Shown: positions 27,869-48,619 of the stretch, in pieces | How positions within the stretch are numbered: the stretch's first letter is position 1 | Layout: each line of letters starts with the position of its first letter | Assembly: GCA_015055515.1 (NCBI GenBank) | Contig: SVIC01000002.1 | Coordinates: forward strand, 1 to 64,000 | Length of the DNA stretch: 64,000 nucleotides | Origin: Clostridiales bacterium | Lineage (GTDB): Bacteria > Bacillota > Clostridia > Christensenellales > UBA1242 | Direction of reading: 5' to 3' | Made by a program: the position numbers and the translations under genes | Notes under the pieces: model-generated | Seen by the model: the letters and a program-made list of their open reading frames with translations, nothing else | Database searches by the model: none | Told to the model about the DNA's origin: nothing

Positions 27869-29770
27869 TTAATATAATTTTTTATTCATAGTTATAATTT
27901 TATATATTATAGGGCCAAGAACTAGGTTAAATGCTAGCACACATGGAACAATAAGTTTAGTATAGAAATATTCTATATTGGTTGCGTCTAAGCCTAGGAA
28001 TGAATTGATTGCATATGTAAGGGTGCATAATACCAAGAAACTAAGCACACCCAAAATTAAGGAATAGCCGAATTTGAATGTATTGAGTTTTCTCTTATTT
28101 GGATTAAAGAATATTGGTAATATTAGAATTAGGCTAATGGCTATAACTAGAACATATGCAAAAATAAATATTGTATTATCTGTGGTTGTAAATAGGGTGT
28201 TGCCTTTCAGTATTATTAGTAGTGATGTTAGTTCAACAAGCATTACAATAAGTAGGCTTATGCCTAGGAAGAATTTTGCTTTATTTGATTTGATGTAGCT
28301 TCTTTGATTAATATCAATATCGCTTATATCGTTCTTATATCTTACATGTGCATTATATTCTGAAATCTTGATATTATTATCGTTATCCTCTTCCAATACG
28401 CTTTCATCTTCATCTTCTTGTCTGTCATATTTGAAGTAATATGAATCATCTTCATCTTCTTCAAAATTAGCATATTGACTATCTACGAAAGATTGTTCGT
28501 TTGAATACTCAGAATTTTCTTCTTCTGCTAATTGGGGTTTAACCATTCTGCTATCTGCAATATTATCGAACTTTTCTAAGAATTTTTTATTTCTTTCTGC
28601 AATTTCTTCTTCTGTCATTGTATCGAATTGATCAATATTGTTGTGAGTTTCAGCTTTAGTAGTTGTCTTAGTTTTTGATCCTTTTCTCATGATCTCATCA
28701 AAATCAGAGGAATTGAACATATTTGATTGTTCTACGCTATTAATAGTTCTGTTATTGGTTTGTTGTATAGCATTAGTATTTATATATTTCTTAGTAATAC
28801 CATTCTCATCAACAAAATAAGTTGGCTGTGCTTCGTTAAATGTATATTGTGTTTGTCTGTTGCTATATTCATTAGGGGAGTGGTTGCCATAAAGAATGTT
28901 CATTGAGTTCTGCTTTTTCTGTTCGCGTTCATACAATGTTTCGTCTTGTACTATTCTATTATTTTCTATTGTAGATGCCTTAATAGAATTATATACATTG
29001 TTTATTTCTCTACTTAAGTTGTTCGTGTATTTAATAGTATCATTATTTGTAGTTTCTTGAATATATTTGTCGATTTCATTATCTTCGATATTATCTAATT
29101 CTTCTATACTTGTATATTCATTATCGCTATCGGTTTGTTCTTCTTCTATATACAAACTATCATCTTTTACATCGGGCTCTTCGATATCGTTCTCTTCGTA
29201 TTCTTCAGGTTCATAGTCTGGTATATCATCCATTATATCTTCTTGTGGTTCTTCTATCTCATCATCTGTTGTGTAAGCATCATCTTCATCTGCCAGTAAT
29301 GAGTTGATTCTATCATTTACATCGAAATTATAATTTGAATATGAATAGGAAGAGATATTATCATTATCATCTGTTTCGCTTGAATCAATGTTGTATTCTT
29401 CATTATCATCTACGTTATCAACTTCTTCTACGTTATTATTGAATTCATAATCATCATTTAGAAATTCATAACTACTACGCTTATTCAATACATTGGATTC
29501 ATAATATTTTCTTCCAGCATCTGTAAGTGTATAATAATGTCTTCTGCCACCAATCTCAGAATCAGCCCACGATGATGTTACATAACCCTTATTTTCGAAT
29601 CTAGTAAGACTGCTATAAAGGCTAGGTTGTTTTAATACTATTTTACCATCTGTCTTATTCTCTACTTCTTTTATAATCTCATAGCCATATTTACTGCCAG
29701 AGTAAAGGGTCTCCAATATAATATTGTTTACCGATCCTCTAGAAGCATTTCTTCTTGTTCTTTTTGCCAT
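27869..29770 (-). CDS. PadR-like wing-helix domain fused to a long acidic linker and a ~4-TM C-terminal domain
   Basis: N-terminus NNIILETLYSGSKYGYEIIKEVENKT...PSLYSSLTRFENKGYVTSSW...GGRRHYYTLTDAGRKYY is PadR-like; residues ~110-480 D/E/N rich; four hydrophobic helices at the end. Confidence 0.8.
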   Translation of the reverse strand: MAKRTRRNASRGSVNNIILETLYSGSKYGYEIIKEVENKTDGKIVLKQPSLYSSLTRFENKGYVTSSWADSEIGGRRHYYTLTDAGRKYYESNVLNKRSSYEFLNDDYEFNNNVEEVDNVDDNEEYNIDSSETDDNDNISSYSYSNYNFDVNDRINSLLADEDDAYTTDDEIEEPQEDIMDDIPDYEPEEYEENDIEEPDVKDDSLYIEEEQTDSDNEYTSIEELDNIEDNEIDKYIQETTNNDTIKYTNNLSREINNVYNSIKASTIENNRIVQDETLYEREQKKQNSMNILYGNHSPNEYSNRQTQYTFNEAQPTYFVDENGITKKYINTNAIQQTNNRTINSVEQSNMFNSSDFDEIMRKGSKTKTTTKAETHNNIDQFDTMTEEEIAERNKKFLEKFDNIADSRMVKPQLAEEENSEYSNEQSFVDSQYANFEEDEDDSYYFKYDRQEDEDESVLEEDNDNNIKISEYNAHVRYKNDISDIDINQRSYIKSNKAKFFLGISLLIVMLVELTSLLIILKGNTLFTTTDNTIFIFAYVLVIAISLILILPIFFNPNKRKLNTFKFGYSLILGVLSFLVLCTLTYAINSFLGLDATNIEYFYTKLIVPCVLAFNLVLGPIIYKIITMNKKLY

Positions 29771-29969
29771 TGTTTAATTTACTCCAAAATAAAATTGTTT
29801 ATTTGTCGCCAAAAAAAATATTTTGTATATTTTATCTAATTTATATAAGTATATAAAAAAATAATCGCGATAGTCAAATGAAATACTATGCAAACTATTT
29901 TTTTTATATTATAATACTATGCATAGAGTAAAATATGGCTTATTATGACAGAAAGAGGGGAGGTTAGTA

Positions 29970-30635
29970 ATGAGACCAGATTGTATAATTAGGACCAATA
30001 GACGCAGTATGTCTTTGTCGGTTAGCAAAGATGGAAAAGTCATTGTGCGAGCACCTAGAAAATTAGATATTAATAAAATATTTGAATTTGTGAACGAAAA
30101 AGAATCTTGGATTAATAAACACTTGAACGCAATCAAAAATACCTCTCTGGTCAATCATGATATAAAAGAATATAACGTATTTTTATTTCTTGGAAATAAA
30201 TATAAATTAAGACAGGTGGCCGGAATAAAACAGATTGAATTTTGTAGTAACGAAATTATTTATCCTACTAATTGGGATAAGGAAATTCTGATTGCTAAAA
30301 TGAAGAAAAAATATCGCCAGTTAGCCTCTTCAATACTAAATGATAGGATTGAGTATTTTGCAAAGTTAATGCAATTAGATTATAATACTTTTGCTGTAAG
30401 AGATTATAAGGCAAGGTGGGGATGTTGTTCTAAGAAATTAGATATTGTAATTAATTATAAGGCAATTATGTTGCCACATGTATTAATAGATTATATTCTT
30501 ATTCATGAGTTAAGTCATATTATTGAGTTTAATCATTCTTCATCTTTTTATAAGATAATAGAAAGTGTAATGCCTGACTGGAAAAAGAATAGGAAGAAAT
30601 TAAAGGATTATGATTTTCTTTTAGGATTGTTTTAG
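29970..30635 (+). CDS. YgjP-like (DUF45/M48-type) metal-dependent hydrolase
   Basis: RDYKARWGCCSKK.DIVINYKAIMLPHVLIDYILIHELSHIIEFNHSSSFYKII, HExxH motif. Confidence 0.9.
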   Translation: MRPDCIIRTNRRSMSLSVSKDGKVIVRAPRKLDINKIFEFVNEKESWINKHLNAIKNTSLVNHDIKEYNVFLFLGNKYKLRQVAGIKQIEFCSNEIIYPTNWDKEILIAKMKKKYRQLASSILNDRIEYFAKLMQLDYNTFAVRDYKARWGCCSKKLDIVINYKAIMLPHVLIDYILIHELSHIIEFNHSSSFYKIIESVMPDWKKNRKKLKDYDFLLGLF

Positions 30636-30856
30636 ATAAATAATTAATAACCAACTGTAATTATTTATTTTATATAATATAGGTACTATGCAAACTGTAC
30701 TGCACATATAACTATAACTTTTTATAAAAAAGCGAAACATTATGAAAATTTATTTTTTACTAAATAATATTAGGGTAATAGTACAGTATAAGGGTAATGG
30801 CTTAATATAGGACTATTTTATTAATTACTGATATAAAACAGTTAAAATAGATGCTT

Positions 30857-30882
30857 AAAAACTATTCGCAAAAGAATAGTTT
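30857..30882. repeat. perfect inverted repeat (hairpin) in intergenic region
   Basis: AAAACTATTC-GCAAAA-GAATAGTTTT. Confidence 0.85.
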
Positions 30883-31030
30883 TGCGAAATAATAGCGGGT
30901 TTTAGCCATAAATATGCATAAGATCATAATATTATATAAAATTATTAATGCAAAAACTGCAACTTTGGCTATTTATGGTCGCTTTTGCGTAATATGCAAA
31001 GAGTTTGAATAGTACAAAAAATGCATAATA

Positions 31031-31966
31031 CTATGCATTTAATTTGTTAAAATATTTTTCCAAAGTCTTAATAATATCTCTGGCATCGTATAATGTGAAT
31101 TTACTATTATATGATAAAAAAGCCAGCGAATCATTATCTAACATTTTATAATCTTGTAATGGAAAATTTCTCATATAATTAATTATATTACGTAATGAAA
31201 TTATGTTGAATTTTTCTTTATATAATGAATCTGGTATATTATATAACATTGTTTCAATAAGATCAAAATTTACATAATTTATTTTTTTCTCAACTTTAAT
31301 TATATTTTTTATAGTTAATATATAGTCAATGAAATTATTATGAGTCTTAAGGTTTTTATAAGCGAAATTGTTTAATCCTGTATTTATATATCTAATACTC
31401 CCCTCTTCATAATTTTTTGCATAGTACTTAATTGCATAGTTTCCTTCTAAGTCTCTTATTGTTTGAGAAATAATTATTTTGAAATTGTATATAACATTCT
31501 CATTTACTGGATTAATATTTTTAATGTCTTTTTCTTTTTTTGATTTTTTTGTATTTTCAGTAATAGTATAGTTATTAATATCTGTTGCCAAATATCTATA
31601 ATTAATTGCATATTTTGATTGCCATAATAATGTTGTATTTTTAGATTTTTGAACAAGTAGATTAAATATATCATTTTTAATTTCATCTAAATGTATTTTA
31701 TTGGTCTCTTTTTTAGATATTGCAACCAAATTTTCTGTGTTCTTTAATGTAACATATAATACATTTGGACCTTCATTGTCAATATTTGTTCCAAGGCTGT
31801 ATTCATCATAATAGTTCGCATATATATTTTCATGCACAGACAGACTAGGAAATTTGTTTTGAAAATATTCATCAAATACTTCTATTACAATATTTTTGAA
31901 TTGATTTCTTATATTTACAATGTCTGTGTTATCAATATGAGAGTGCTCTATAATATTAATATTCAT
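31031..31966 (-). CDS. hypothetical protein; weak resemblance to a degenerate nucleotidyltransferase-superfamily protein
   Basis: Long ORF with independent terminator-like repeat at its 3' end; YANYYDEYSLGTNIDNEGPNVLYV resembles an NTase GS...DxD loop lacking the Asp residues; FDLIETMLYNIPDSLY and YDARDIIKTLEKYF resemble C-terminal NTase helices. Confidence 0.4.
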   Translation of the reverse strand: MNINIIEHSHIDNTDIVNIRNQFKNIVIEVFDEYFQNKFPSLSVHENIYANYYDEYSLGTNIDNEGPNVLYVTLKNTENLVAISKKETNKIHLDEIKNDIFNLLVQKSKNTTLLWQSKYAINYRYLATDINNYTITENTKKSKKEKDIKNINPVNENVIYNFKIIISQTIRDLEGNYAIKYYAKNYEEGSIRYINTGLNNFAYKNLKTHNNFIDYILTIKNIIKVEKKINYVNFDLIETMLYNIPDSLYKEKFNIISLRNIINYMRNFPLQDYKMLDNDSLAFLSYNSKFTLYDARDIIKTLEKYFNKLNA

Positions 31967-32086
31967 ATGATCCCCTGCTGATTTCTTTACTTTTTTTAGA
32001 AAATATTATATATTAATTATAATCTTAGTATAGCAAATATTTTGCAAAAGTAAAACAACATAAAAGCATAATTTGAGAAGTGAAAA

Positions 32087-33133
32087 GTGGAAAATTATTT
32101 TATTGAGCGTGATTTTAATAATTTAGATAAAATAGACAAATTATTGGAGGGTATGCCACCCTTCTGTCTTGAATTTTTACGTGGAATAGAACAACGCACA
32201 TCTGTTCTGACTAGATTGGGATATTTAAGAGACTTGAAAATGTTTTTTGAGTATTTAATTAATAATACGAAAGAGTTTTGTGGCAAAAGATTATCTGAAC
32301 TTACAATTAGTGATCTAAATAATGTTACGCAGACACATATTGAGATGTTTCTATCTTATCTTAGAATGTATAAGAATAAGAATTCTTATGTTAAGAATGG
32401 AGAATGCTCAGTTTCACGAAAATTAAGTAGCATTAGAAGTTTGTTAAAGTATTTTTATAAGAAGAATTCTATAGATAATAATGTAGCATCAAAAGTAGAT
32501 ACACCTAAATTACATGAAAAGCCTATTACAAGGCTAGAAGTAGATGAAGTTGTAAAGATATTGAATTTATCAGAAGATGGATATAGCCTTACTCAAATGC
32601 AACAAGGATTCCATAAACACACAAAAGAGCGAGATTATGCAATATTATCTCTATTCTTAGGTACAGGTATACGTATATCGGAGTGTGTAGGACTGAATGT
32701 TGAAGATATTGATTTTACGCAAAATGCTTTTAATATAACTAGAAAAGGCGGAAGCAAGGTAACACTATATTTTAATAATGAAGTCGCTGATGCCCTATTG
32801 CAATATTTAGATGTGCGTAGTAAGATTAAAAATCTTCCTGAAGGCGAAAATGCGTTATTTTTAAGTTTACAAAATAAAAGAATTAATGTTCGAACTGTGC
32901 AAATATTAGTAAAAAAATATGCGCAAATAATAAATCCATTAAAGAAAATTACACCACATAAGTTGCGTAGTACCTTTGGTACTAATCTGTATAGAGAAAC
33001 AAATGATATATATGTAGTTGCATCGGTACTAGGTCATAAAGATATAAATGTTACTAGAAAACATTATGCCGCTATCACTGATGATATTAAGAGAGATGCT
33101 TTGACAAGAAATGTTAAATTGAGAGAAGATTAA
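32087..33133 (+). CDS. XerC/XerD-like tyrosine recombinase
   Basis: Catalytic R (GTGIRISECVGL), K (RKGGSKV), HKLR, GHKDINVTRKHY all present; GTG start. Confidence 0.92.
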   Translation: MENYFIERDFNNLDKIDKLLEGMPPFCLEFLRGIEQRTSVLTRLGYLRDLKMFFEYLINNTKEFCGKRLSELTISDLNNVTQTHIEMFLSYLRMYKNKNSYVKNGECSVSRKLSSIRSLLKYFYKKNSIDNNVASKVDTPKLHEKPITRLEVDEVVKILNLSEDGYSLTQMQQGFHKHTKERDYAILSLFLGTGIRISECVGLNVEDIDFTQNAFNITRKGGSKVTLYFNNEVADALLQYLDVRSKIKNLPEGENALFLSLQNKRINVRTVQILVKKYAQIINPLKKITPHKLRSTFGTNLYRETNDIYVVASVLGHKDINVTRKHYAAITDDIKRDALTRNVKLRED

Positions 33134-33150
33134 AAATCATAAAAAATTTA

Positions 33151-33188
33151 GAACAAATGTTTGACATATGATTTGCTATGTGGTATAT
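33151..33188 (+). promoter_or_regulatory. lexA promoter with overlapping LexA (SOS/Cheo-like) box
   Basis: GAACAAATGTTT overlapping TTGACA - 17 bp - TATATT. Confidence 0.75.
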
Positions 33189-33219
33189 TATTAATACAAT
33201 TAAATATTCGAGGAAAATT

Positions 33220-33828
33220 ATGAAGCAAAATAAAGAAGAACAATTGTTGCGTTTTATAAAAGACTATATTAAAGATAATTGTTATCCCCCTACTGTAAGA
33301 GAAATGTGCCACGCAATTAAAGTAAGTAGTACTAGTACAATATCTTATTATTTAGATAAGTTAGAGAAAAGTAACGCAATAAAGAAAAATCCAAATAAGA
33401 ATCGTGCATTAGAAGTTGTTGAAGAAGAATTAACTCCAGTAAAAACATCTGATGATATGATAGCAATACCTGTATTAGGAACTATAGCTGCAGGTGCACC
33501 AATATTAGCAGTAGAGAATTGTGAAGAATATTTCTATACATCCCCTAATATGTTCCGTGGAGAAGGATTATTTATGTTAAATATTCATGGAGATAGTATG
33601 ATAAACGCTGGTATTCTAGATGGTGACCAAGTCGTGATTAGACAGCAATCTACGGCAAGTAATGGTGAGATTGTAGCTGCGATGATCGATGGTAGTGCTA
33701 CTCTTAAAAGGTTTTATAAAGAGAACGGAAGATATAGATTACAGCCCGAAAATGATACAATGGAGCCTATTTATGCCGATAATGTAGAAGTTATAGGAAA
33801 GTTGGTTGGATTGGTTAGAAAGTTCTAA
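33220..33828 (+). CDS. lexA: LexA repressor
   Basis: MKQNKEEQLLRFIKDYIKDNCYPPTVREMCHAIKVSSTSTISYYLDKLE; cleavage AAGAP, GDSMI catalytic Ser; start moved from 33178 to 33220 because the upstream ATG lies inside the promoter. Confidence 0.96.
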   Translation: MKQNKEEQLLRFIKDYIKDNCYPPTVREMCHAIKVSSTSTISYYLDKLEKSNAIKKNPNKNRALEVVEEELTPVKTSDDMIAIPVLGTIAAGAPILAVENCEEYFYTSPNMFRGEGLFMLNIHGDSMINAGILDGDQVVIRQQSTASNGEIVAAMIDGSATLKRFYKENGRYRLQPENDTMEPIYADNVEVIGKLVGLVRKF

Positions 33829-33829
33829 A

Positions 33830-33860
33830 AAAAAGTGAAATGATTATCATTTCACTTTTT
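33830..33860. terminator. bidirectional terminator between lexA and rny
   Basis: AAAAAGTGAAATGA-TTA-TCATTTCACTTTTT. Confidence 0.85.
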
Positions 33861-35457
33861 ATTTTGCATAGTCAACGCTTCTGGTTTCTCTTATTACATT
33901 TACTTTGATTTGACCTGGATATTCCATTTCTTTTTCTACTTTTCTAGCAATATCTTTTGCAAGGAATACAGCTTCTTCATCGTTAATCATTTCTGGCTTA
34001 ACAATTATTCTGATTTCACGACCAGCTTGAATTGCAAAACTCTTCTCAACGCCTTTGAAATTATTAGCAATTTCTTCTAATTGTTGCAATCTCTTAATAT
34101 ATGATTCAAGAGACTCTCTTCTTGCACCAGGCCTTGAACTGCTAATAGCATCTGCGGTTTGAACAATAATTGCTTCTAATGATTCATATTCTACACCACC
34201 ATGATGTGCTGCAATACAATGGATAACTTCTTTAGATTCTTTGAATTTAGTTGCTAGATCAACACCAATGCTAATGTGTGTGCCTTCTACTTCATGATCC
34301 ACCGCTTTACCGATATCATGTAATAGACCGCCCCTTCTACATATCTTTTCATTAGCTCCTACTTCTACAGCTATTAAACCTGCAAGATATGATACTTCCA
34401 ATGAATGTTTTAAGCAATTTTGACCATAACTAGTACGGTATTTCAACCTTCCTAATATCTTCACAAGTTCAGGATGTAGACCATGGATTCCTGCATCGAA
34501 TACAGCGGCTTCACCTTCCTCTTTGATAGTATTCTCAATATCCCTAGTTACCTTCTCTACCATTTCTTCTATTCTAGCAGGATGAATTCTACCATCCAGT
34601 ATCAATTTTTCCAATGATAGTCTAGCAATTTCTCTTCTTACAGGATCGAAGCAACTAATTACCACTGCCTCTGGTGTATCATCTATAATCAAGTCTACGC
34701 CAGTAGCATTCTCCAATGCTCTAATATTTCTACCTTCTCTACCAATAATTCTACCTTTTAATTCTTCATTAGGTAAATCTACAGATGTAACAGTTGCTTC
34801 ACTAGTATGATCAACTGCTGTTTTTTGTATAGCAAGAGTAACTATTTCTTTTGCTTTCTTCATAGCATCTTCTTTAGCGTTACTTTCTATATTTCTAATT
34901 AATATAGCAGCATCTTTCTTTGCTTCTTGCTCAAATCTGTTAATTAACTCTTGCTTTGCTTCTTCTTTAGAAAGTTTTGCAACACGCTCAAGTTCTTGAG
35001 TCATTTTCTTGGTTATTTCATCTTGTTCAACAGCTTTTTTAACTAATGACTCTTCTTTTATTTTTAACTCTTCTTTAATTTTTTCTATATTTTCTAATTT
35101 CTTGTCTATTGATTCTTCCTTGCTGTTTAGGAAATCCTCTCTAGCAATCAATCTGTTTTCAGTCTTTTGGACTTCAGATCTTCTTTCTTTTATTTCTTCG
35201 TCACATTCTGCTTTTAATTTGTGTACTTCCTCTTTCGCTTCTAAGATTATCTCTTTTTTCATATTGTTTGCATCAGATTCTGCTAATTTAATAATCTCGT
35301 CTGCTTTTTGTTTATTCTTAGAGAATGAACCTTTTGATACATTTTTCAAAATGAAATATGTAGCAGGTATTGCAACTGCACAAGTAATCACAACAGATAT
35401 TATTGCAGTTGTAAAACTAAACGCAGATAACGAAAATATTTGCGCAATATTTTGCAT
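33859..35457 (-). CDS. rny: ribonuclease Y
   Basis: N-terminal TM, coiled coil, KH ([15 protein letters not shown]) and HD ([10 protein letters not shown]...[12 protein letters not shown]) domains. Confidence 0.97.
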
Positions 35458-35556
35458 GTTATCTCCTTTTAATTATAAAAATATATTTCAATAATCATAA
35501 TTTAATAAATTTTTTGCAGTGTTAAGAAACACTACTTATAATTGTAATATGAGATT

Positions 35557-35603
35557 AAAAAAAAGTCAAACATTTCTATATAATATACAGAATTGTTTGA
35601 CTT
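35557..35603 (-). terminator. terminator after thiI
   Basis: Minus strand AAGTCAAACA...TGTTTGACTTTTTTTT. Confidence 0.75.
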
Positions 35604-35609
35604 ATGATA

Positions 35610-36773
35610 TTACAAGTTCTTTGTTTCGACAATTTCTATAGTTGCAATTGCTTCATTTACTAACTTCTCTATATCAAGCCTAGATTCTTCTTTTTCTACT
35701 TTTTCTAATTTTGGTTTTATTATAGGATACTTTGGAAGAAATACTGTACAACAATCTTCATAAGGAAGTATAGATGTTTCGAAGAAATTTCTCTCTTTTG
35801 ATATTGTTGTAATTTCCTCCTTATCCATTGCAATTAATGGCCTTAGAATAGGAACTACATCTGATACAATGTTAGTAGAAGTTATGCTTTCAATAGTTTG
35901 GCTGGCAACTTGTCCAAGACTTTCACCCGTAATTATTGCCTTTAAGTTATTTTCATTTGCTATTCTTTCAGCTATCCTTACCATAATTCTACGCATAATA
36001 GTAATCATGTATTCTGGCTTACAATGTTTATGAATTGCCTCTTGCACTTTTGTAAAAGAGCAAATATATAATTTAATATTTCCAGTATATTCACTTAATA
36101 ACTGCGCTAGTTTTATAACCTTTTCTTTTGCCATTTCACTAGTATAAGGAATAGATTGGAAATGCAAAGCACTTATTGACATACCCCTCTTTGCCATCAT
36201 ATACCCTGCTACTGGAGAATCTATTCCCCCAGAAAGTAGTAATAACCCACCGCTACTAGTTCCCACAGGCATACCACCAACACCATTTATAGTGTCGTAG
36301 AATACAAAAGTTCTGTTCTGTTCTCTTATATCTACATTTACTTCTATGTCATAGTTGTGTAAATCAACCTTAATATTTGGATTGTTATTTAATATAATTT
36401 CACCCAATCTTTTAGAAAATTCTGTAGAATTGATTGGAAAGTTCTTGTCCGCCCTTTTTACTGTAACTCTGAAAGAATTATTATTCAATCTGATGGTACT
36501 TATATAATCTTCTATATTCTCTATGCTTGTCTCAAAATATGTGGCTGGACTTACTGAATGAACACCAAATACATTTTTAACGTTATTTAATAGTTTCTTT
36601 TCATGTTTCTTGTCATAATTAGTTATTAATATTCGTCCACTAATTTTTTGAATATTGCAAGGAAATTGTTTGGTATTTTCAATTATATTATTTAATAGAG
36701 ATTTTTCAAAATAACTCTTGTTTTTTCCTTTTAGAAATATTTCACTATATCTAACTAATATTGCATTTTGCAT
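35610..36773 (-). CDS. thiI: tRNA 4-thiouridine synthase ThiI
   Basis: LLLLSGGIDSPVAGYMMAKRGM PP-loop, ITGESLGQVASQT, THUMP N-terminus. Confidence 0.96.
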   Translation of the reverse strand: MQNAILVRYSEIFLKGKNKSYFEKSLLNNIIENTKQFPCNIQKISGRILITNYDKKHEKKLLNNVKNVFGVHSVSPATYFETSIENIEDYISTIRLNNNSFRVTVKRADKNFPINSTEFSKRLGEIILNNNPNIKVDLHNYDIEVNVDIREQNRTFVFYDTINGVGGMPVGTSSGGLLLLSGGIDSPVAGYMMAKRGMSISALHFQSIPYTSEMAKEKVIKLAQLLSEYTGNIKLYICSFTKVQEAIHKHCKPEYMITIMRRIMVRIAERIANENNLKAIITGESLGQVASQTIESITSTNIVSDVVPILRPLIAMDKEEITTISKERNFFETSILPYEDCCTVFLPKYPIIKPKLEKVEKEESRLDIEKLVNEAIATIEIVETKNL

Positions 36774-42423: not shown

Positions 42424-42454
42424 AAAAAAGCCACCTAATTTAAGGTGACTTTTT
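42424..42454 (-). terminator. terminator of the coiled-coil gene
   Basis: AAAAAGCCACCTAATTTAAGGTGACTTTTT stem. Confidence 0.75.
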
Positions 42455-42456
42455 AA

Positions 42457-45342
42457 TTAATCTTCATTAATTATTTCTTTTATATGTTCTATATCTTCTT
42501 TTAGTAAAGATACATGTTTATTAATTAACATATAGTTCTTTTCCAGATCAGGCAACCTATTTTCATTCTGCTTCAATACTGTTTCGCAAGAACTGATACT
42601 ATCTCTTAGATCTTCTATTATCGCCATATCATTTTTTAGTTTTTCAGCTTTTTCTTGGCTGATTTTTGTGTTTTTTACACCATATAAGCTAATCTTTTGT
42701 TTTGCTACCTGCATTTCTTTCTTAGCAAGTTTATTAGTATCTCTTTCATATGCTTTTTTGATACGAAGTAATGGTAAGTATTCCTTACTTATTTTCTTTA
42801 ATTCTTTTTCTGCTTCAACCAATTCTTTTTGAAGTTTCTCTAATTTAGCTTCAAATTGCAAATTCTTCTTTGAAGATATCTTAACTGGCTTCTCTACAAC
42901 TTCTATTACTTCTACAACCTCTTCTTTTGGCTCTACTTTTTCTTCAATAACAGGTGTGGTATTTTCCTCTACATCGGTAGTAGTTTCCTCTACTATCTTC
43001 TTATATGACTTTTTAGAATATTCAATGGTTGCATTGTTATTACTATTTGCATATCTTATAGGACCATCTGAATCATTATTGCTCTTGTTTTTGCTTAATT
43101 CCTGTAGGCTTTGAGTAATTCTCTTTAGTTGTTCATTCTGAGACTTTAATACATTATTATGAGATTCTAATCTTTTAATCTCTACGTTCTTGCTAATTTC
43201 GGCATTTTCTTTTTCCATTTGATTAACATTTTGAATTATTTTAGTTAATCTGGATGTCATTTTGTTAATACCAGCATATTTATTTGCAAGAGTTTCATCA
43301 TTATTAGAAACACTAGCCTTATTATAATTATCAGTATAATAATCCAAATCGCTTTGGCTTATTTTTAATTGTTTATTTAACGATTTCAATTCGGTAGTCT
43401 GATATGAAGTGTCTTGCTTCAATTTCTTAAATTCAGATATTTCGATTTCCTTATTCTCAATAAGGATTTTTATGCTATCAATTTCAGAATTTAATTTAGT
43501 TATTAATGTTATTAACAACTTGTCATTTTCTTTTTCAAGTTCTTTAATTGAATTCTCATTTCTGGCTATCTGATCTTTAATTATTGAAATATTTCTACCT
43601 AGACTATCTGCATCATCATTAGACATATTCTTTAATTCTTTGTCTAGTTCTTTTCTCAATCTTTCTATTTCAGACTTAAGATGTTTGATTTGCTCTTTTA
43701 TCTCATCAATGCGTTGTTCAATTTGCTCTATTTCTTTTCTTTCTTCTTCACGTATACGAGATTGAATTTGCTCTAATTCTTTTTCTTTCTTGTCCCAAGC
43801 CTTTTTCATATCTTCCAATTCAAGAATTTCATTAGAGTAGTCTTTGTGCTCATCTTTTAATATGTGAATCTCTTTTTCTTTGGATTCCATTTTGTCAATG
43901 AAATCTTCTAATTCGGTAGTTAGCTTATCAATTTGCTTTTCATTCTCTTCTTTTTGAAGATCTTGTCTATTCTCTAACTCTTGTTGCTTTGTTTGCATTT
44001 CAGACTTTAATTCTTCAAGCTCTTTTATATATGCAGTTACATCCGCATTTTCTTTTCTCAATGAATCGATTTCTTCTTGTTTAGTTACAATTTCTGCTCT
44101 TGATATCTCTAATTCTCTCACTAAAGAATCTATATATTGTTGATCATCTTTTCTATGGTTCTCTTGCAACTCATATATTTGTTCTTCTTTCGCTCTTAGA
44201 TTATCTTTTAATAATTGAAGATCGGCAGACTCTTTGCTATAATCTTCATTTTGCTTTTTAAGCCTGTTGATTTCTTTTTCTTTCTTAGCAATATCTGATC
44301 TATAAGTATCTAGCGCATAAGTCAATTCATCATACAGTTTTTCATATTCAGCTATTTCTTCTTCTTGCTGAGCAACAAAATCTTTTTCTTTGTCTCTCCA
44401 CTCAGCCTTCATCTTTTCCAAATCAGCCATTTCTTTAGAATAATCATTCTCACGGCTAATTAATTCATTTATTTCTTGTTGCTTTTGTTTGATCTCATCT
44501 TTAGATTTCTCTAGATCTTCTACAAGAGCTTTAATTTCTTTTTCATTCTCTTCTTTTTGTAATCTTTGGATCTCAAGAAGTTCAGTTTCTCTTAATCTCC
44601 ACTCTCTTTTCAATTCTCTGATATCATCTTTCGTAATACCATAATATTGTTTTTTGTTTTTATTCTTCTTATTATGATTACGTGGATTTTTATATTTTTC
44701 TTTATACAATTGATCCTTTAATTTTACCAACTCTTTACGTTCTTCTTCAAACATTTCCTTTGCCAAACGCAATTCTTGTAGTTGCTTGTCAATTGCTTCA
44801 TTATTTACTTTCACATCTGCCTTAACATCATCCTCAATTATAGGCTCAGTTACAGTTTCGGTAACTACTTCTTTTTCTTCTTTTTTAGTTTCTTCTGGTT
44901 TCTTTACTTTTTGTTTAGCTTCATCATTATAGATTACTAAGGCTTCCTTTGTAACTTCATCTAAGATAGCATCATAATCTTCTTCGTTTTTCTTAGTTTC
45001 TACTTCTGCTACTTTTTTCTGTTCTTCATCAATCTTTGCCTGAAGTGCCTTCTGCTCTTCTACAGCCTTGTCAAAATCAATCTCAGTTACTTCTTCAGTA
45101 TTTTTCTCTACAGACTCAACAACCTGTTGTCTATTGTCAACGTTACTATGCACGACTATATCACCATATTCGTATGTATTTTTTGTTGCTTTCTCTTTCT
45201 TAGATTTGTTGAAATACACTCCCTCTGTAGATGAAAATGCACTAAATATAGCATCTAGCATTAGTGACAATAAAAAAGCACCAAGTAGTACTATTGTAGC
45301 AATACCTAAAATTTGTAAAATTACATATAAAACATCAGTCAT
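42457..45342 (-). CDS. membrane-anchored 961-aa coiled-coil protein with 67-aa repeats
   Basis: N-terminal TM (VILQILGIATIVLLGAFLLSLML) then charged K/E-rich coiled coil; five in-register 67-aa repeats at residues 233-567. Confidence 0.85.
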   Translation of the reverse strand: MTDVLYVILQILGIATIVLLGAFLLSLMLDAIFSAFSSTEGVYFNKSKKEKATKNTYEYGDIVVHSNVDNRQQVVESVEKNTEEVTEIDFDKAVEEQKALQAKIDEEQKKVAEVETKKNEEDYDAILDEVTKEALVIYNDEAKQKVKKPEETKKEEKEVVTETVTEPIIEDDVKADVKVNNEAIDKQLQELRLAKEMFEEERKELVKLKDQLYKEKYKNPRNHNKKNKNKKQYYGITKDDIRELKREWRLRETELLEIQRLQKEENEKEIKALVEDLEKSKDEIKQKQQEINELISRENDYSKEMADLEKMKAEWRDKEKDFVAQQEEEIAEYEKLYDELTYALDTYRSDIAKKEKEINRLKKQNEDYSKESADLQLLKDNLRAKEEQIYELQENHRKDDQQYIDSLVRELEISRAEIVTKQEEIDSLRKENADVTAYIKELEELKSEMQTKQQELENRQDLQKEENEKQIDKLTTELEDFIDKMESKEKEIHILKDEHKDYSNEILELEDMKKAWDKKEKELEQIQSRIREEERKEIEQIEQRIDEIKEQIKHLKSEIERLRKELDKELKNMSNDDADSLGRNISIIKDQIARNENSIKELEKENDKLLITLITKLNSEIDSIKILIENKEIEISEFKKLKQDTSYQTTELKSLNKQLKISQSDLDYYTDNYNKASVSNNDETLANKYAGINKMTSRLTKIIQNVNQMEKENAEISKNVEIKRLESHNNVLKSQNEQLKRITQSLQELSKNKSNNDSDGPIRYANSNNNATIEYSKKSYKKIVEETTTDVEENTTPVIEEKVEPKEEVVEVIEVVEKPVKISSKKNLQFEAKLEKLQKELVEAEKELKKISKEYLPLLRIKKAYERDTNKLAKKEMQVAKQKISLYGVKNTKISQEKAEKLKNDMAIIEDLRDSISSCETVLKQNENRLPDLEKNYMLINKHVSLLKEDIEHIKEIINED

Positions 45343-48055: not shown

Positions 48056-48619
48056 TTATTTATTTATTATTTGATCTACTAAATGATCATATACTTTCAT
48101 ATTTTGCTTGATTTTCTTTAAGTAATTTTCACTTTCCTTAAATGGAATAGTATCAAGATTTTTTCCATCTTTAGAGTATTGAGGGTTCTTTAACCAATTA
48201 TTTACATTTCCCATACCAGCATTATATGCAACAATAGCATTATCAATATTATTGTAATAATCTATTAAATACCTAATATACATACATCCGTATTTTATAT
48301 TTAACTCTACATTCTCCAAATCAGTGTAATTACTTAACATGTCATCACCGCACTTTTTTGCCATATCATTTGCCGTATTTAGTTGTAACTGCATTATGCC
48401 GATTGCATCAGCAGAAGAATGTGCGCTTGGATTAAATGCTGATTCTACATTAATAGTACTAAAAATTAATATAGGATCTAGATTGTTCTCTCTAGAGTAT
48501 TTTATGACTATTTCTTGATAATCCAACGGATAACAAATGTCTAAATAAGCATGAGCCAAACAAAATATTGAGATAACAGTTAATACTAATAAACTTACAT
48601 AAAATATTATTTTTTTCAT
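48056..48619 (-). CDS. lytic transglycosylase (Slt-type)
   Basis: VESAFNPSAHSSADAIGIMQLQLNTA...NIKYGCMYIRYLID..NIDNAIVAYNAGMGNVNNWL. Confidence 0.92.
   Translation of the reverse strand: MKKIIFYVSLLVLTVISIFCLAHAYLDICYPLDYQEIVIKYSRENNLDPILIFSTINVESAFNPSAHSSADAIGIMQLQLNTANDMAKKCGDDMLSNYTDLENVELNIKYGCMYIRYLIDYYNNIDNAIVAYNAGMGNVNNWLKNPQYSKDGKNLDTIPFKESENYLKKIKQNMKVYDHLVDQIINK

Follow-up and report, generated by a model that had tools for sequence, protein, structure and literature searches.

Eukaryotic golgins carry a membrane anchor at one end, a long coiled coil, and a binding domain elsewhere, and long repeat-bearing coiled coils are frequent among surface proteins. In EzrA (PF06160), a spectrin-like division regulator of Firmicutes, the repeats of about 100 amino acids form triple-helical bundles and are bent into a semicircle (PMC4243239). 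The bacteria of the UBA1242 group inhabit animal guts, have genomes near 1 Mb with incomplete glycolysis and with sporulation genes, and have been proposed to be partner-dependent, symbiotic or parasitic (PMC12306168). Here we describe a protein of 961 amino acids encoded in a 64,000-nucleotide stretch of DNA (hereinafter, the window) that combines a predicted membrane anchor, a repeat-bearing coiled coil and a C-terminal domain common to its relatives.

The gene, its neighborhood and its distribution

The gene and the elements that flank it are as follows.
42457..45342 (-): whole gene, an open reading frame with an ATG start, encoding a membrane-anchored long-helix protein of 961 aa
45379..45407 (-): promoter-like site, TTGACA-17-TAGAAT, 11/12, by consensus match only
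42425..42454 (-): terminator-like hairpin followed by a T-run, directly 3' of the stop codon
45487-45515: second terminator-like hairpin, at the end of the upstream degV gene

The promoter-like site, together with the flanking hairpins, suggests that the gene forms an independent transcription unit. Over its full length, the protein is 60-62% identical to its orthologs.

The profile of the C-terminal domain has matches in 223 of the 247 genomes of the window's own family, which is probably the GTDB family UBA1242 of the order Christensenellales, and in 162 of the 168 genomes of this family with completeness of 90% or more and contamination no higher than 5%. The protein from the window, with one transmembrane helix, matches the profile with an E value of 2.7e-54, its own sequence being part of the profile. 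In a survey of 297 genomes of the order, all 22 matches fall within the same family, and among 399 genomes sampled across the phylum, this profile, which may miss distant relatives, has no match beyond the window's own genome. The carriers are uncultured Clostridia, many from ruminant or other gut samples, and include 'Christensenella sp. UBA1242' and 'Candidatus Caccovivens'. A protein that almost every member of the family has kept, and that is undetected elsewhere in the sampled genomes, points to a trait peculiar to these cells.

The usual gene order in the family is secG-rnr-smpB-FAM-patatin-MBL fold, where FAM stands for the family of the 961-aa protein and the gene names are assigned from sequence. 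The clade that includes the window does not have the secG-rnr-smpB order; there, the arrangement is degV-FAM-deacetylase (a polysaccharide deacetylase), near PBP1a. The neighboring genes leave the function unfixed: secG, rnr, smpB, patatin and the MBL-fold gene do not point to a scaffold.

Several other features of the window and of the related genomes are worth recording. A germination protease gene (PF03418; 48634-49449, (-)) adjoins the gene for an SLT-domain lytic transglycosylase (48056-48619, (-)); a spore-germination gene in a reduced genome of 1.07 Mb is in line with the published account of the group (PMC12306168). The GC skew, at first positive, turns negative near 32 kb (about 28000-36000), a change of the kind that occurs at a replication terminus (or origin). 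The MreB proteins of genomes G000-G014 yield weaker profile matches, the best in each genome lying at about 1e-17 to 1e-63, than many MreB proteins from other families of this order, whose values go down to 1e-145, which suggests that MreB may be fast-evolving or unusual in this family. A 24,271-aa frame in genome G197 is an artefact, the frame extending into a masked N stretch.

The 67-residue array and its coiled-coil register

Residues 233-567 consist of five gapless units of 67 amino acids that together occupy exactly positions 43642-44646.
44446..44646 (-): unit 1, residues 233-299
44245..44445 (-): unit 2, residues 300-366
44044..44244 (-): unit 3, residues 367-433
43843..44043 (-): unit 4, residues 434-500
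43642..43842 (-): unit 5, residues 501-567

The array had been proposed in the initial annotation, and all five unit starts and ends quoted there are present. The best ungapped self-alignment of the protein is at offset 67 (BLOSUM62 score 371, residues about 214-565), followed by offset 134 (283). The highest score among 1000 plain shuffles at offsets 20-199 is 104; shuffles that keep the hydrophobic pattern score at most 204 at offset 67, and those that keep mod-7 or mod-11 positions at most 95 (60 of each). The 67-residue periodicity, on which the proposal hinged, is thus significant, and orthologs with a 67-aa periodicity of their own confirm the array independently. Because identity between the units of one protein is no more than 25-37% and Tandem Repeats Finder detects no 201-bp tandem array in the DNA, the duplication is old; the latter result also leads us to reject a recent DNA-level repeat.

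Over the five units, the hydrophobic Fourier power (residues 233-567) reaches 31.6 at a period of 67/19 = 3.526, compared with 4.5 at 3.5 and 1.7 at 3.667; by turns per 67 residues, it is 31.6 for 19, 4.7 for 18 and 11.9 for 20. The period lies between 3.5 and 3.667, as in coiled coils of the heptad/hendecad class that consist of heptads and stutters, and three relatives peak at 3.52-3.53. Taken together, 17 units from four species have strong core columns at 2, 9, 12, 16, 23, 26, 38, 41, 45, 52, 59 and 62, that is, a 3-4 heptad pattern interrupted by one 3-4-4 hendecad (stutter) at about unit residues 27-37. The arithmetic first suggested for the unit, eight heptads plus one hendecad with one stutter in each, is borne out by the period, and the stutter can now be placed. 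Charge shows no periodicity at the repeat length (power of 0.50 at 67 residues and 1.23 at 33.5, with a shuffle mean of 1.49), and a charge-banded staggered filament is accordingly unsupported.

Arrays of 67-aa units are found in three related species, with five units in G011, four in G001 and about six in G010, so that the repeat number varies between close species. In the G011 protein (L036), units 2-5 are 64-69% identical to units 2-5 of the window, and unit 1 is four residues short. The G001 protein (L035) has one unit fewer owing to a 67-residue loss that spans parts of units 1 and 2 and leaves the later register intact. The G010 protein (L025) has a unit set of its own, in which the units are spaced by 67 residues except for one spacing of 81 = 67+14. 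In the tree of the C-terminal domain, the four repeat-bearing proteins lie on one side of a branch with support of 100/100; because G010 is on a long branch, its placement depends in part on the common 67-residue unit. The unit is absent from the other members of the genus examined (about 580-690 aa). The array is a clean natural case of stalk lengthening in phase-preserving steps (67, 67+14).

Anchor, spacer and C-terminal head

Every relative has the N-terminal membrane helix and, at the C-terminus, a domain of ~135 aa; the 67-aa repeats are not conserved. The family-wide domain, the conserved part of the protein, was overlooked in the initial annotation. The remaining parts of the protein are the following.
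45235..45339 (-): N-terminal membrane helix, a predicted N-out/C-in signal anchor, residues 2-36, from hydropathy
45040..45084 (-): juxtamembrane short motif EIDFDKAVEEQKALQ, about residues 87-101
44938..44979 (-): second short motif DYDAILDEVTKEAL, residues 122-135
43081..43641 (-): further long helical stretch without the 67-aa unit, residues 568-754, with modeled helices 575-672 and 682-754
42871..43080 (-): linker, probably disordered, residues 755-824, pLDDT mostly 26-35
42460..42858 (-): C-terminal helical domain, probably a hairpin, residues 829-961, from alignments and AlphaFold2
42658..42681 (-): loop between helices 1 and 2 of the head, likely the hairpin tip, residues 888-895

By hydropathy, each of the 83 members checked has one transmembrane helix. 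No K or R precedes this helix in 58 of the 83, and mostly 4-6 follow it, a charge distribution that predicts the bulk of the protein to reside in the cytoplasm. The N-terminal transmembrane helix and the membrane anchoring of the original proposal thus stand as predictions. Motif EIDFDKAVEEQKALQ recurs in many members within an acidic linker (the pattern is found in 34 of the 83, a few of these with it elsewhere in the protein); motif DYDAILDEVTKEAL is kept across the repeat clade, and similar motifs, read by eye, occur in other members. The model of the full-length monomer is of low confidence (pLDDT 62, pTM 0.24) and consists of long helices; its helix 2-36 is likewise of low confidence.

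The spacer between the anchor and the head is 146-800 residues long among the members examined. Most short spacers have a high D/E content, often 35-42%, and little K/R, about 10%; the composition of long ones is more balanced, and they resemble coiled coils. One long member, L100 (1013 aa; L100:2493-5531, also L146 of G801), contains a 22-residue repeat (a double hendecad, with a period of 11/3 = 3.667), apparently an independent lengthening of the same spacer. Given that spacer length and make-up vary across the family, a strict ruler with one family-wide length is excluded. The interpretation in the initial annotation is supported in part: the heptad-hendecad arithmetic, the membrane anchor and the unrecognized family hold, and a regular filament or ruler as the general purpose of the protein is unsupported, because the number of units differs among close species, because most relatives lack such a repeat and many have an acidic linker, and because there is no 67-residue charge banding.

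The AlphaFold2 model of the head, built from 54 family sequences, has a pLDDT of 93.2 and a pTM of 0.73, with helices at positions 2-59, 68-97 and 102-132 of the domain; on the predicted secondary structure and model confidence, the head is likely a hairpin formed by a long helix lying against a pair of shorter helices. The invariant G60-V61 (G888-V889 of the protein) are located in the loop that joins helices 1 and 2, and a second conserved level comprises P29 of helix 1 and N98, R101 and P103 at the junction of helices 2 and 3. The head also includes a basic stretch, KKE-VAKQK. The family had gone unrecognized, and our searches agree: Pfam, NCBIfam and PDB sequence searches gave nothing over threshold, only sub-threshold coiled-coil noise, and Foldseek with the head found nothing under E 0.12, so that none supplied an explanatory match. 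The Foldseek matches of the head to Vipp1, PI3K p85, EmrA and YscO look like generic long-helix matches and were discounted. In three members (L097, L110 and L114), the head is followed by 112-264 extra residues, acidic or of low complexity, without a match in a Pfam search.

Possible functions and comparison with known systems

The explanation that we favor, with a probability of about 0.5, is that this protein acts in the cytoplasm as a tether or scaffold, with a hairpin for docking and a spacer that can be adjusted, and represents an undescribed lineage-specific family. Under this scenario, the N-terminal signal-anchor helix would hold the protein in the membrane with its body inside, as the predicted topology implies; a spacer of adjustable length and make-up would follow; and the C-terminal helical-hairpin head would probably dock on a partner, candidate contacts being the invariant G-V loop and the conserved P29/R101-P103 level. 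In this species and its three relatives, the spacer would be a long, presumably oligomeric coiled coil extended by tandem 67-residue units, and one stutter per unit would keep the hydrophobic seam in phase, so that units could be gained or lost with the rod unbroken. With ~0.15 nm of helix per residue, a unit would span ~10 nm, and a fully helical array of five would measure ~50 nm. The orthology of units 2-5 with those of G011 (64-69% identity, against 25-37% between units of one protein) speaks for this explanation. A bolder extension, which we put forward tentatively and consider less likely than not, is a near-universal lineage-specific structural protein, a membrane tether with a spacer evolving freely between acidic linkers and coiled-coil stalks that differ in periodicity, that would organize an envelope or division structure in cells where neither EzrA nor bactofilins were detected. 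The head could also be regulatory or bind nucleic acids instead of being a docking hairpin.

A special case of the tether or scaffold would be one that functions as EzrA does, in the divisome or in elongation, and binds FtsZ or its partners at the septum. The anchor-then-rod layout and the predicted topology are alike; the window's genome encodes FtsZ, a weakly matching DivIVA and a divergent MreB, and no EzrA or bactofilin was detected in it; and within the clade, the gene is located near PBP1a and the polysaccharide deacetylase. Such a role nevertheless appears rather unlikely given that this genome has no match to the EzrA profile, that a 67-aa unit with the single period of 3.526 differs from the ~100-aa triple-helical bundles of EzrA (PMC4243239), and that division genes are not among the common neighbors in the family, which are secG, rnr and smpB. 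Membership in the EzrA family itself is rejected: PF06160 has no match in the window's genome (G000) and none over the cut-off in 24 relatives, and two control genomes pass. The N-terminal transmembrane helix and cytoplasmic body of EzrA have a counterpart here, by prediction only, and its bundle repeats have none, the units being exactly 67 aa long with the 3.526 period throughout and the low-confidence model consisting of long helices. We consider it unlikely, too, that the spacer is passive, the coiled-coil expansion being linker drift and the 67-aa repeats having no function of their own. The highly variable linker length and composition (146-800 aa) and the changing unit number fit such drift, but two species keep units 2-5 in register at 64-69% identity, and almost all of the 17 units have hydrophobic residues at the strong core columns, both of which speak for constraint on the rod in this clade; dN is below dS in both region comparisons computed (two, neither of which covers the repeats).

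A membrane tether of the nucleoid or ribosomes, the head of which would bind DNA, SMC-type proteins or the translation or trans-translation machinery, is improbable. The secG-rnr-smpB-FAM order hints at an RNA or translation context and the head has its basic stretch, but the window's own clade lacks this gene order, and the weak SMC_prok_B coiled-coil likeness (E 7.5e-7, 27 bits) is generic coiled-coil scoring far under the cut-off of 567 bits, with no hinge or ATPase parts. Least credible of all is a surface-exposed fiber or adhesin with its C-terminus outside, serving contact with a partner cell. Proteins of this kind do often contain long repeat-bearing coiled coils, but the charge rule points to a C-in orientation (no K/R before the helix in 58 of 83), and no cell-wall anchoring motif was noticed in the protein. 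The proposed partner dependence of UBA1242 (PMC12306168) would suit such a role.

The family provides a range of spacer lengths with which to ask whether length or only the ends matter. Among known systems, the SMC/Rad50-type coiled coils (TIGR02168 and similar) resemble it in their long heptad/hendecad helices and weak profile scores; they differ in that here a transmembrane helix is present and neither ATPase halves (unmatched in Pfam) nor a hinge was found, the NCBIfam SMC score being 27 against 567 bits. Lamins and intermediate-filament-type rods are alike as long coiled-coil rods for which heptads, hendecads and stutters are discussed in the literature, whereas the present protein is membrane-anchored, lacks 67-aa charge banding and has no significant match to solved structures. 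Golgin-type tethers share the layout by analogy only, with no sequence relation claimed, and are anchored at the opposite end. EzrA shares the N-terminal anchor, the cytoplasmic helical rod and even the five tandem repeats; here, by contrast, the units are 67 aa of near-continuous helix with one stutter each, and the rod leads to a different C-terminal domain.
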